Shown: positions 3,961 to 16,528 of the stretch, piece by piece
How the letters are laid out: the number at the start of each line of letters is the position of its first letter
How positions within the stretch are numbered: the stretch's first letter is position 1
Virus record (IMG/VR): IMGVR_UViG_3300028025_004775
Location: 1 to 27,316 of that record
Direction: 5' to 3' (one strand)
DNA length: 27,316 nucleotides
Source: a virus
Notes under the pieces: generated by a model
The model's database searches: none
What the model was told of the DNA's origin: nothing
The model's input: the letters and a program-made list of their open reading frames with translations, nothing else
Translations under genes and position numbers: made by a program

Positions 3961-4518
3961 ATGAATAACGAAGTAACACAGAGTATGCAGACAGAATGTA
4001 ATCAAAGATTAGATACTCTATATAGAATGCATGGAGAGTGGATAAACAATATCACACTCAATATGTGTAAAAATAAAGGGGTTACAGAAGAAGTAGTAAG
4101 TGATTTATATCTTTACTTAGCAGAGAAATGTAATCCTAAACTATTTTATAAAGAGAGTTACAACTTACATTATGTTTATATGTTCTTAAAGACGAGAGCA
4201 TTGAATATGTTAAAGAGAAACGGAAAGGTACAAACACTACCGGAGAATTGGGATTTGGTTGATAATGATTATGATATAGAATACGATAATAGAATAGAGA
4301 AAGCATACTCAGATGTAAAAGAAGAATTAGAAAGTATGAAGAAAAGAAAGGGATGGAGTAGTGCAGTAATCTATTCACATTATTATTTTAGTGATAAAAC
4401 ATTAGATGAAGTAAGTAAAGATATCGGTATTAGTAAATCAACCACATTCTTAGCAGTTAAGAAAACAAAATTACATTTAAAAAATAATATAGAAAACCCA
4501 TTTGAAAATGACAAATAA
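3961..4518 (+). CDS. Sigma-70-like (ECF-type) RNA polymerase sigma factor
   Basis: 185 residues. Residues about 20-90 form helices with the spacing of sigma region 2 (W27-I-N-N-I, L49-Y-L-Y-L-A-E, F75-L-K-T-R-A-L-N). An acidic linker follows (98-112), and residues 146-172 (KTLDEVSKDIGISKSTTF...) make a helix-turn-helix like region 4. Such small sigma-like proteins are common in Bacteroidetes phages and probably direct host RNA polymerase to phage promoters, although -35 and -10 contacts cannot be read from sequence. The recurring gap motif in the structural region is a candidate target. The start is directly after the previous stop; the 3' end overlaps the next small ORF by 11 bases. Confidence 0.65.
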   Translation: MNNEVTQSMQTECNQRLDTLYRMHGEWINNITLNMCKNKGVTEEVVSDLYLYLAEKCNPKLFYKESYNLHYVYMFLKTRALNMLKRNGKVQTLPENWDLVDNDYDIEYDNRIEKAYSDVKEELESMKKRKGWSSAVIYSHYYFSDKTLDEVSKDIGISKSTTFLAVKKTKLHLKNNIENPFENDK

Positions 4519-4669
4519 CGAAAAACTAAACGAACAAATTAAAGAGATTGCAGAAATGTTTAAAGCAAGTTTCACTAAAGAAGAAATCCAAAAATTAGAA
4601 AAAGATTTTGAAGAGTTCCAAAAGAGAATGTTGGAACAAAAGGATACATCAACTACAAACGAAGCCTAA
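4508..4669 (+). CDS. Small coiled-coil protein, 53 aa
   Basis: A short ORF from ATG 4508 to TAA 4667-4669, overlapping the end of the sigma-like gene by 11 bases. The product is highly charged, about 53 residues, and almost wholly helical with heptad-like spacing (NEKLNEQIKEIAEMF, EEIQKLEKDFEEFQKRM). It fills an otherwise empty 150 bases between the sigma-like gene and the terminase region, and coding bias matches neighbours. Function unknown; possibly a small regulator or structural helper. Confidence 0.6.
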   Translation: MTNNEKLNEQIKEIAEMFKASFTKEEIQKLEKDFEEFQKRMLEQKDTSTTNEA

Positions 4670-4720
4670 ATGGTTATATATATAGATATACAAAATTATT
4701 TATAAATACAATAAGAAACA

Positions 4721-5026
4721 ATGCCATTCGTAAAAGGTGATAATAGAATAAATAAAAACGGAAGACCGGTAGGAGCAATCAATAGGTCTACCGAACAAAT
4801 GAAACTTACTTTAGCAAGAGCAGCAAATAAAACTTTGGATACTATTTCAGAAGATTTAGAAAAGATAAGAAAAGAGAATCCTGAGAAAGCAATACAACTC
4901 GCTCTACAATTGATGGAGTATGTAATGCCTAAGTTAAGTAGAACAGAAATGAAAGCTGAGATTAATCAAAGAATACAGCAGATAAATGTAAACGTAAACC
5001 GAACAGGTAGTGAACTTAGAGATTAA
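4721..5026 (+). CDS. Terminase small subunit-like protein
   Basis: 101 residues. It opens with FVKGDNRINKNGRP-x-GAINR, the basic Asn-Gly-Arg-Pro motif seen in DUF5681-type and small-terminase-like phage proteins. Residues 25-80 are helical with leucines spaced for oligomerisation. The small subunit recognises the packaging site and feeds DNA to the large subunit. Its end overlaps the large terminase start by 17 bases, which supports the assignment. The 51 bases upstream are AT-rich (TATATATATAGATATAC) with no clear consensus promoter. Confidence 0.7.
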   Translation: MPFVKGDNRINKNGRPVGAINRSTEQMKLTLARAANKTLDTISEDLEKIRKENPEKAIQLALQLMEYVMPKLSRTEMKAEINQRIQQINVNVNRTGSELRD

Positions 5027-6406: not shown

Positions 6407-7027
6407 ATGAAAAAACAAATTGAAATAGTAGTACCTAATAACTGGTCCGCTATACCATTAAGAAAATACATTCAGTTATCTAAAGATTTAAAAAACTTTG
6501 AAGATGATGAAGAAGCACAAACAGCAGCATTATTCTTTTACTTATGTGATTTAGAACCAAACATATTACCTAAGTTAGATGCAGAAACATTTTTGAGAAT
6601 TAAAGATGATTTATATTCTTTCTTATCAGATAACCAATTGCCTTTACAACAAACGATAGTGGTTAATGGTGTTGAGTATGGGTTCTATCCTAACTTATCT
6701 AAGATTGAGTATGGAGCATATGTGGATATCAGTAAGTACAATGAAATGGAATTAGATGAGAAGTGGGCAGAGGTAATGAGTATTCTATATCGTCCTATTA
6801 CAAAAAAAGTTGGAAAGTTATATGAGGTAGAACCGTATAGTGGAAAGATAGATAGGGAGATGTGGTTAGGGGTTACAATGGATGTTCACTTTGGTGCATG
6901 GTTTTTTTTTATCAATTTGTCAAAGGAATTGTTGAAAGGTATCCTGAACTCTACGAAGGAGGAGGGGTTTCCTCCGAACATCAAATCAATTTTGGAAAGA
7001 AGTGGGGAAATTATACAGGCATTGTAG
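6407..7027 (+). CDS. Conserved Bacteroidetes phage protein, tail-chaperone candidate (0 frame)
   Basis: 206 residues in the zero frame. Conserved-looking stations include VPNNW-x-x-IPLRKYI near the N terminus, an acidic DDEE, IVVNGVEYGFYPNLS at about 85-99, YGAYVDISKY, SILYRPI, and TMDVHFGAWFFF at about 157-168. This order matches a protein I know from Bacteroidetes phages without a proven role. Three consecutive TTT codons (residues 166-168) make a T9 run; a -1 slip there replaces the last 38 residues with 86 residues in the other frame. Frameshifted pairs of this kind are typical of tail assembly chaperones (lambda G/GT type), and no other candidate chaperone is visible between tail tube and tape measure. 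The position after TerL is unusual for that role, so the functional name is tentative. Confidence 0.55.
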   Translation: MKKQIEIVVPNNWSAIPLRKYIQLSKDLKNFEDDEEAQTAALFFYLCDLEPNILPKLDAETFLRIKDDLYSFLSDNQLPLQQTIVVNGVEYGFYPNLSKIEYGAYVDISKYNEMELDEKWAEVMSILYRPITKKVGKLYEVEPYSGKIDREMWLGVTMDVHFGAWFFFINLSKELLKGILNSTKEEGFPPNIKSILERSGEIIQAL

Positions 7028-7170
7028 ATTTAGCTAATGGTGATGTTAGATACATCGATGAAGTAGTTAAAGAGCCATTAGAGAAGTGTTTATTACTCTT
7101 AGCATTCAAAGCAGATAAGAATCAGTTAGAAGATTTAGTTCATAGAGAAGCAATGAAGAAGCATAGTTAA
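6898..7170 (+). CDS. -1 frame extension or overlapping small gene
   Basis: An open frame in the -1 phase overlaps the end of the preceding gene and continues to TAA at 7168-7170. After the T9 run it encodes 86 residues with good protein character, including WGNYTGIVDLANGDV-x-Y-IDEVV, PLEKCLLLLAFKADKNQLE. The segment W-x-x-Y, LANGD, EV, L, FL-x-x-K-x-D resembles a short conserved phage module I have seen downstream of similar genes. It can be expressed as a 254-residue fusion by -1 slippage at 6902-6910, or from an internal ATG at 6898 or a GTG at 6862. Neither internal start has a ribosome-binding site. I favour the fusion. Confidence 0.6.
   Translation: MVFFYQFVKGIVERYPELYEGGGVSSEHQINFGKKWGNYTGIVDLANGDVRYIDEVVKEPLEKCLLLLAFKADKNQLEDLVHREAMKKHS
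6902..6910 (+). other. T9 slippery run, candidate -1 frameshift site
   Basis: Nine T in the phase TTT TTT TTT. A -1 slip by ribosome or polymerase enters an 86-codon open frame; a +1 slip meets TGA within eight codons. A stem about 40 bases downstream is suggested by GGAGGAGGGG (6959-6966 region) and CCTCC (6971-6975), which could act as a stimulator. Confidence 0.5.
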
Positions 7171-7574: not shown

Positions 7575-7859
7575 ATGAGTAGATGGTCAAATAGTAGAAA
7601 CGGTAATTTAAGGTTTAGTGTGAATAGAGAGAATAACTCAGGCATTTACATTGGACCTACACAAGGATTAAGTTCACCTAAAAATAGTAGGAGAGGTTGT
7701 CTTTGTTTACACGCTGATATCTACCACGTTGATTGTTGTAATGGAGCATTGATGGAGCAAGGTATTGGTGTGATAGAAGCACCTGCAAGATTTGCAACAA
7801 GAGGAGCATTCAATTATGGTTTCTCAGATGGTTTTGATATTGGAACAGTAGTATACTAA
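7575..7859 (+). CDS. Small conserved Cys-rich phage protein
   Basis: 94 residues. The middle reads RRGCLCLHADIYHVDCCNG-x-LMEQGIG: two cysteine pairs in a GCLC...CC arrangement followed by QGIG. I recognise this spacing (G-C-L-C, Y, C-C-x-G, Q-G-I-G) as a recurrent small protein in Bacteroidetes phages, commonly next to tail-fibre genes; its role is unknown. It may be a virion or fibre-associated protein stabilised by metal or disulfides. It starts after a gap motif and is followed by the fibre gene within 18 bases. Confidence 0.7.
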   Translation: MSRWSNSRNGNLRFSVNRENNSGIYIGPTQGLSSPKNSRRGCLCLHADIYHVDCCNGALMEQGIGVIEAPARFATRGAFNYGFSDGFDIGTVVY

Positions 7860-15658: not shown

Positions 15659-16528
15659 ATGAGTCAACAAATTGTTCATAATACCGGTATAAATTATACA
15701 CTATACTACAACATTCTTAATTATTTTAGAACAATACTTAAGAATCATCCTTCTATTGGAGTTGCAACATATGGTGATTTAACTGATTTTGATACAAAGG
15801 AATTTCCGGCATATCCTGTTGGGAATGTATTGATTACTAATTCTGAATTTGGTACTAATGTAACAACATATACAGTTCAGTTAACGGTAGCAGATAAAAT
15901 TAAAAATAAGAATAACGAATCATCAGGTTCTCTTAATCAACAAAGTATAGATTACTTCAAAGGTGTAGATGATACAATTGATATACACAATAACACATTG
16001 GGTATCCTAAACGATTTAACATCATATACACAAAGAGGAGTAGCAGGGTTTGAGATAGATGGAGAAATCAGTTGTGTTCCGTTCTCAGATAGGTTTAACA
16101 ACGGTCTGGCGGGATGGGTGGCAACCTTTAGCCTAACTACTCACAATGATAAAAATCGTTGTCTTTTTTTTTTAGTTAATCCTTCCGGTAGTGGTTATGT
16201 AATTGAAGAGTGTGAGACGGGTGATAGATATAAAGCGGTATTGAATGAGAGTGGGAGTATAGGACAGGTATTTAGTAGTAAGTATACTTTGGATTCAAAT
16301 GGTGGAACAACTTCGTATGATAACTTAAAGTGTTATACGATTTTAGAACAAATAAATGATACTGATGATTGGGATTTTGTTAACTTAAAAGTATTAGCAT
16401 TACCATTCACTAATTATGGAACGTGTGAAGTGTGTGAGTTGTGGATTTCACCAAAGATATGGAGTACAACACCACAAACATGGAATAGTGGTTCAAACGT
16501 AGTAACGAGGACATGGTCACAAAATTAA
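15659..16528 (+). CDS. Neck or tail-terminator protein with extra C-terminal domain
   Basis: 289 residues in two parts. Residues 1-168 look like a complete neck/tail-completion protein: ILNYFRTILKNHPSIG, FPAYPVGNVLITNSEFGTN, TYTVQLTVADKIKNKN, LGILNDLTSYTQ and a last strand GWVATFSLTTHNDKNRC. Then comes a T10 run (16164-16173). The zero frame reads through into 115 residues of a cysteine-bearing beta-rich domain (YVIEECETGDRY, GQVFSSKY, KCYTILE, YGTCEVCELW). A -1 slip gives stop after F-S and a +1 slip gives stop at once, so slippage would make a short form of 171-173 residues, close to the ordinary size of this family. The extra domain resembles Cys-flanked decoration modules of phage tails. 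Family call moderate; two-form model is inference. Confidence 0.7.
   Translation: MSQQIVHNTGINYTLYYNILNYFRTILKNHPSIGVATYGDLTDFDTKEFPAYPVGNVLITNSEFGTNVTTYTVQLTVADKIKNKNNESSGSLNQQSIDYFKGVDDTIDIHNNTLGILNDLTSYTQRGVAGFEIDGEISCVPFSDRFNNGLAGWVATFSLTTHNDKNRCLFFLVNPSGSGYVIEECETGDRYKAVLNESGSIGQVFSSKYTLDSNGGTTSYDNLKCYTILEQINDTDDWDFVNLKVLALPFTNYGTCEVCELWISPKIWSTTPQTWNSGSNVVTRTWSQN
16164..16173 (+). other. T10 slippery run at domain boundary
   Basis: Ten T in the phase C-TT TTT TTT TT-A. Only the unshifted frame is open; TAG (16173-16175) and AGT TAA (16174-16179) close the two others immediately. It lies exactly between the conserved core and the added domain. Confidence 0.55.

Follow-up and report, generated by a model that had tools for sequence, protein, structure and literature searches.

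A conserved run of ten Ts in a predicted phage tail terminator gene is a probable slippage site for making plain and decorated proteins

INTRODUCTION

What role does an uninterrupted run of ten Ts have midway through a phage reading frame? The question is raised by the record of an uncultured virus of 27,316 bases, analysed here in full and referred to as the window, in which such a run lies within an ORF of 289 codons. An earlier note on this DNA proposed that the run switches a neck protein between a short and an extended form. A comparison of the locus with its relatives supports reading the T10 run as a device for short and extended forms. In our view the run is likely to act as a site of programmed slippage, at which RNA polymerase, aided by an RNA hairpin, would give a mixture of plain and decorated tail terminators.

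MATERIALS AND METHODS

Relatives were collected from IMG/VR by two protein scans, from which the best 80 of 285 and the best 80 of 461 matches were used, and by a DNA scan, from which the matches listed were used. In order to avoid selecting for the run, a degenerate DNA pattern of the stretch before the run and an alignment of plain copies were employed. All relatives are assembled metagenome contigs. Counting silent changes on T10 copies alone would be circular; the tree for silent changes was instead based on the N-domain of all in-frame copies with the Cys domain described below, including those without T10. The protein was modelled with AlphaFold from 57 sequences, giving a model of moderate confidence (mean pLDDT 65), and matches were sought with Foldseek.

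RESULTS

The T10 run and its predicted products

The gene, the run and the two stops behind it are located in the window as follows.

15659 to 16528, + strand: gene for the predicted decorated tail terminator, 289 aa in the unshifted frame (ORF translation and structure comparison)
16164 to 16173, + strand: T10 run, candidate slippery site, CTT TTT TTT TTA
16173 to 16175, + strand: TAG stop, reached from a run that has lost one base (or gained two)
16177 to 16179, + strand: TAA stop, reached from a run that has gained one base (or lost two)

The four codons of the run encode Leu169-Phe-Phe-Leu172. When the product was recomputed for run lengths from 7 to 13, full-length protein (288-290 aa, 32.1-32.4 kDa) was obtained with 7, 10 and 13 Ts. 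With 9 or 12 Ts the frame closed immediately behind the run, giving 171-172 aa (19.1-19.3 kDa), and with 8 or 11 it closed one codon further on (172-173 aa, up to 19.4 kDa). These products bear out the earlier description of the run as lying in frame, with only the unshifted frame open and the other two stopping within three codons, and the computed masses of 19.1-19.4 and 32.1-32.4 kDa match the two sizes, about 19 and 32 kDa, that had been predicted. The two forms would be distinguished by their peptides, with predicted ends NRCLFF, LFFFS or LFFFN for the short form versus NRCLFFLVNPSG.

The only other run of at least nine Ts or As in the window is a T9 at 6902-6910. About 2.0 Mb of fetched loci contained 192 runs at the T10 site and only 17 other runs of at least nine Ts on either strand, about 10 of which represent a second conserved site. 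Because such runs are so rare elsewhere in the window and in these loci, the T10 run is not a chance feature.

The protein before and after the run

The run divides the protein into two parts.

15659 to 16171, + strand: N-terminal domain, residues 1-171, predicted tail-terminator fold
16172 to 16525, + strand: predicted removable C-terminal domain, residues 172-289, beta-rich, four invariant Cys

Foldseek matched the model of the N-domain to the Mu terminator (E 9.8e-5), the R4C terminator, lambda gpU, T5 p142 and the pyocin collar. Terminators are its best matches in the PDB (E 1e-4 to 1e-3, probability 1.00, from a model of pLDDT 65), and among its predicted viral relatives are many terminators that have a large addition at the C-terminus. 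Portal and DUF6712 genes precede the gene and an HK97-gp10-like gene follows it, placing it in a head-tail junction cluster. Neither domain had a match in Pfam, and PHROGs gave no confident match. The protein is most likely a tail terminator, which refines its former description as a complete neck protein. Completeness itself is supported by the sequences, since the protein of stand-alone copies, 171-174 aa in length, stops where the run would be.

The part after the run is a beta-rich, Cys-bearing domain, as had been proposed, although its length is 118 rather than 115 aa. Its four Cys (C14, C54, C85 and C88 of the domain) are invariant, and no fold match was found for it in the PDB. In five relatives (L095, L122, L090, L154 and L157) the T10 and a Cys-type domain are followed by far longer additions, giving proteins of 314-1092 aa. 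These additions carry Gly-rich or Lcl domains as well as Thr-rich linkers, features typical of surface display.

Relatives with and without the run

Every one of the 80 nearest IMG/VR relatives (63-96% identity, all full length), taken as the best 80 of a longer list of matches, has exactly ten Ts. The union of the scans contained 205 distinct copies among the matches listed: 119 long copies with T10, 10 long copies without it, 75 short copies without it and one with T9 (L153). Among these matches, T10 is present in 119 of the 124 copies that bear the Cys domain, and none of the copies without an extension has a T run. This comparison of homologues, which the earlier note had suggested, thus ties the run to the domain. 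The plain proteins, 171-174 aa in length, terminate at the same residue as the run position (...RCLFELYPN* and similar). Some plain copies occur alone (L084, L144, L159 and others), so that plain-only relatives exist, and others lie immediately 5' of a T10 copy as the first gene of a tandem pair; among the matches listed, the final set contains 26 such tandem short copies, none with a T run. Tandem pairs of plain and extended T10 terminators were seen in L026, L043, L096, L107, L112, L115, L139-L143, L155, L173, L174 and others, and the plain copy is often only about 50-60% alike to its extended neighbour.

Of the 10 long copies without T10, four carry the Cys domain and six carry other extensions, of the Thr-linker or Gly-rich type (L205/L124, L220, L231, L239, L242 and L248). 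The latter six lack both the run and the hairpin described below; the run therefore goes with the Cys module and not with every decoration. An independent-pairs comparison of T10 with the Cys domain yielded few supported pairs. No relative was found among INPHARED phages or in GTDB genomes when the terminator protein and a portal alignment were used as queries.

Long homopolymers are hypermutable, and the length of the tract could in principle change during replication, turning the domain on or off in each genome. Such phase variation is what a genetic switch would amount to, and L153, a minus-strand copy starting at 7712, has T9 with the Cys domain out of frame. Among the matches listed, however, the run was T10 and in frame in 119 of 120 run-bearing copies and T11 in none, so that the variation in length expected of a phase-variable tract is not seen. 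Phase variation also gives the adjacent hairpin no role, and the second site described below needs a change of frame at a constant T9/T10. We regard phase variation as very improbable. The run would therefore not be a genetic switch, and any mixture of forms must arise during expression. In L153 the long form would itself need slippage; its T9 could be a true off form or an assembly error.

Silent-site conservation and guarding stops

If the run serves only to encode its amino acids, its silent positions should be as free as others. On the tree of in-frame copies with the Cys domain, codons 169, 170 and 171 had undergone 4, 2 and 2 silent changes, whereas 59 other conserved columns had a median of 19 such changes and never fewer than 5 (for example, 38 for Leu150, 32 for Leu159 and 19 for Phe142). 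Leu169 is CTT in every T10 copy, while CTT makes up 15% of Leu codons; TTT makes up 82% of Phe codons. In their N-domains the T10 copies are as much as about 1.35 changes per site apart, and the three wobble sites of the run are invariant among them. That the run merely encodes a required Leu-Phe-Phe-Leu linker is contradicted by this silent-site test. Two of the copies that lost the run, L139 and L192, do keep Leu-Phe-Phe-Leu, as a linker would require, but they spell it TTA/TTG TTC TTC TTA, showing that the protein needs no run; we consider the linker explanation almost certainly wrong. Judged by sequence, the TTC TTC spelling is how slippage would be killed.

The frames on either side are guarded by stops. 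A stop (TAA, TAG or TGA) lies at the run in the T9 frame of all 114 T10 copies, compared with 9% expected, the base after the run being A or G behind TTA and only A behind TTG. In the T11 frame a stop follows after two codons in 102 of the 114 copies, and within six codons in the remainder. Two features mark dnaX-like slippage: a run of at least nine As or Ts within an ORF whose silent positions are conserved in the run, and stops close by in each of the other two frames. The T10 gene shows both.

The junction at the run is also a place where modules are exchanged: N-domains that are 90-95% alike are joined to C-domains that are only 37-43% alike. Swapped N- and C-terminal parts were noted between L064/L059 and L092/L114 and between L116 and L163. 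The run could thus be part of a recombination boundary, a block kept alike by exchange of the C-terminal module and having no role in expression. Against this, silent positions just upstream of the run vary freely (Asn163 44%, Cys168 25%, Asp164 22%) while the T10 wobble sites do not among T10 copies. Homogenisation would not halt at the run, and the invariant stop in the T9 frame is unaccounted for. We find a mere recombination boundary very unlikely.

A hairpin beside the run and its joint loss

A predicted RNA structure adjoins the run on its 5' side.

16143 to 16162, + strand: RNA hairpin ACAAUGAU-AAAA-AUCGUUGU, -6.5 kcal/mol, one base 5' of the run

The consensus of the hairpin is CAAYGAU-AAAA-AUCGUUG, and it ends one or two bases 5' of the run. 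Over 40 T10 copies the mean MFE was -6 and the mean z -4.6, compared with values near zero for 22-nt controls. Arg167 is encoded by CGN (CGT, CGC or CGG) in 119 of 119 T10 copies and by AGA in 10 of 10 extended copies without T10. The hairpin uses otherwise avoided codons, since only 15 of the 653 Arg codons elsewhere in T10 genes are CGT. Within the stem no compensatory (double) changes were found; 86% of cells are paired, and shuffles were uninformative. A hairpin with the rare CGT is also kept, without a T run, in 25 of the 26 tandem plain copies (for example, L043 at 4480-4992).

The four copies with the Cys domain but no T10 have a bearing on the function of the run, as homologues with the domain and no T run had been named in advance as evidence against the switch. 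They do exist, at 4 of 124 domain-bearing copies. On the best tree they are separate losses, each among T10 neighbours, two of the four being forced by supported branches. Hairpin and run vanished together in all four (L153 apart), and three of the four phages carry a separate plain gene. Loss of T10 was seen in 3 of 26 tandem phages versus 1 of 94 single ones (P = 0.03, a statistic that ignores relatedness), and 23 of the 26 phages with a separate plain gene still keep T10. These four copies imply that the mixture is not indispensable.

A hairpin directly 5' of the slippery tract is the hallmark of stem-loop-stimulated slippage by RNA polymerase, and its presence beside the run points to that mechanism. 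A hairpin followed by a U tract is also the geometry of an intrinsic terminator, and the element could act as a weak internal terminator or attenuator and so reduce expression of the downstream fibre gene. The hairpin is weak (-6 kcal/mol) and AU-rich, however, the run occurs only in genes that carry an extension, and attenuation would need neither frame-specific stops nor exactly ten Ts. Attenuation therefore seems to us highly improbable.

Alternatively, ribosomes may slip. Programmed -1 (or +1) frameshifting on U UUU UUU or U UUU UUA would lead to an immediate stop and the short form, following the logic of E. coli dnaX. Every T10 copy contains the heptamers U UUU UUU and U UUU UUA/G, which fit the X XXY YYZ pattern, and in 102 of 114 copies a ribosome in the -1 frame would reach a stop within two codons. 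Frameshifting is also common among phage structural proteins (PMC5009743). However, a heptamer needs seven bases, yet all ten are invariant, including those of the CTT codon, and the invariant stop lies in the T9 frame, a frame to which -1 slippage does not lead. Downstream of the run, where a stimulatory structure would be expected, no folding was detected (z about 0 over 60-80 nt) and codons vary freely; the sole structure lies upstream, where slippage by RNA polymerase needs it. Furthermore, U_UUU_UUA and U_UUU_UUU are only weakly shift-prone in E. coli (PMC5009743). We thus hold ribosomal frameshifting to be unlikely, and believe that the slipping agent is probably RNA polymerase, as in Thermus dnaX, aided here by the hairpin.

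A second conserved T run

The other long T run of the window lies in a gene near that for terminase (6407-7170).

6902 to 6910, + strand: second conserved T9 run, in ORF 6407-7027; the -1-frame ORF 6862-7170 opens here

This run is T9, or T10 in L099 and L112, and was kept in all 21 distinct relatives found. One additional T or a -1 shift would lead to a conserved tail of 88-92 aa (YPELYEGGG..., PLEKCLLLLAFKADKN), and the 0-frame tail is variable in length and sequence. Because only the -1-frame tail is conserved, a shift of frame appears to be needed to make the conserved protein. Slippage by RNA polymerase and a ribosomal shift fit this site equally well. A candidate hairpin at this site was too weak to claim (75% of cells paired; 44 of 500 shuffles as high). 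The same phages thus carry two putative recoding sites, one of which would add a protein part and the other remove one.

DISCUSSION

The observations at the T10 site are consistent with the following mechanism. As RNA polymerase transcribes the ten Ts, the nascent hairpin one base 5' of the U run would aid realignment of the U10:dA10 hybrid, and some mRNAs would then carry 8, 9, 11 or 12 Us. Messages with 10 (or 7 or 13) Us would be translated into the 32-kDa form, which includes the Cys-bearing outer domain, and those with other numbers of Us would stop at the run and give the plain 19-kDa terminator. The terminator ring of lambda gpU is hexameric, and we presume the same here. Both forms, in a ratio that slippage would set, may share this ring at the neck, so that only some subunits are decorated; we infer that having some plain subunits would reduce crowding among the decorations.

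The closest parallel is Thermus thermophilus dnaX (tau/gamma), in which the long product is likewise unshifted and slippage on an A/T homopolymer of at least nine gives the short form. In Thermus dnaX a homopolymer of nine is followed by stops in both other frames and the short product amounts to about 50% (PMC1088944, PMC5009743). The differences are that dnaX has A9, while the present gene encodes a phage virion protein and has U10 with a hairpin beside it. A nascent hairpin beside the tract stimulates slippage by RNA polymerase (PMC5009743), and for the E. coli enzyme T runs are more slippery than A runs (PMC6260861). A Roseiflexus insertion sequence (Penno 2015, as described in PMC5009743) has a nascent hairpin directly 5' of its slippery tract, as here; according to that description the tract is T5C5 and a strict one-base deletion gives the transposase, in contrast to the U10, weaker hairpin and shorter product of the phage gene. 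Slippage truncates parts of the secretion apparatus at about 15% in Shigella spa33 and mxiA (PMC5009743; efficiencies from PMC4256274), which are bacterial type III secretion genes and not phage genes.

In several phages a single gene supplies plain and decorated virion proteins, including the coat of T3/T7, the tail tube of SPP1 and of lactococcal 936 phages, and proteins of Listeria phages (PMC5009743, PMC6669499). There ribosomal frameshifting adds a domain to a capsid or tail-tube protein, whereas slippage here would remove one from a terminator. The terminators of Mu, lambda (gpU), R4C and T5 (p142) share the N-domain fold and gene neighbourhood, but those compared are plain, while the present protein has a C-terminal display domain; unlike them, some of its relatives add hundreds of residues of Gly-rich or Lcl domains. 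A literature search found no description of slippage or frameshifting for a tail terminator. Hairpin-stimulated slippage could be a general device of gene expression in these phages, a widespread and uncultured family, with U10 trimming terminators to set the mixture and U9/U10 making the conserved form of the second gene; we give this an even chance. Such a pair of slippage-controlled genes would, to our knowledge, be without precedent among phages.

Truncating slippage is hard to spot by comparison, as it adds no new coding sequence (dnaX; PMC1088944). At this locus it can be recognised from the conserved silent sites, the stops that guard the other frames, the natural losses and the relatives that have only the plain form, and the same comparative test can find further truncating sites. 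If the proposed mechanism is correct, the phage would control how many large decorations a small ring carries with no need for a second gene, and slippage by RNA polymerase would join the ways in which virions obtain mixed subunits.
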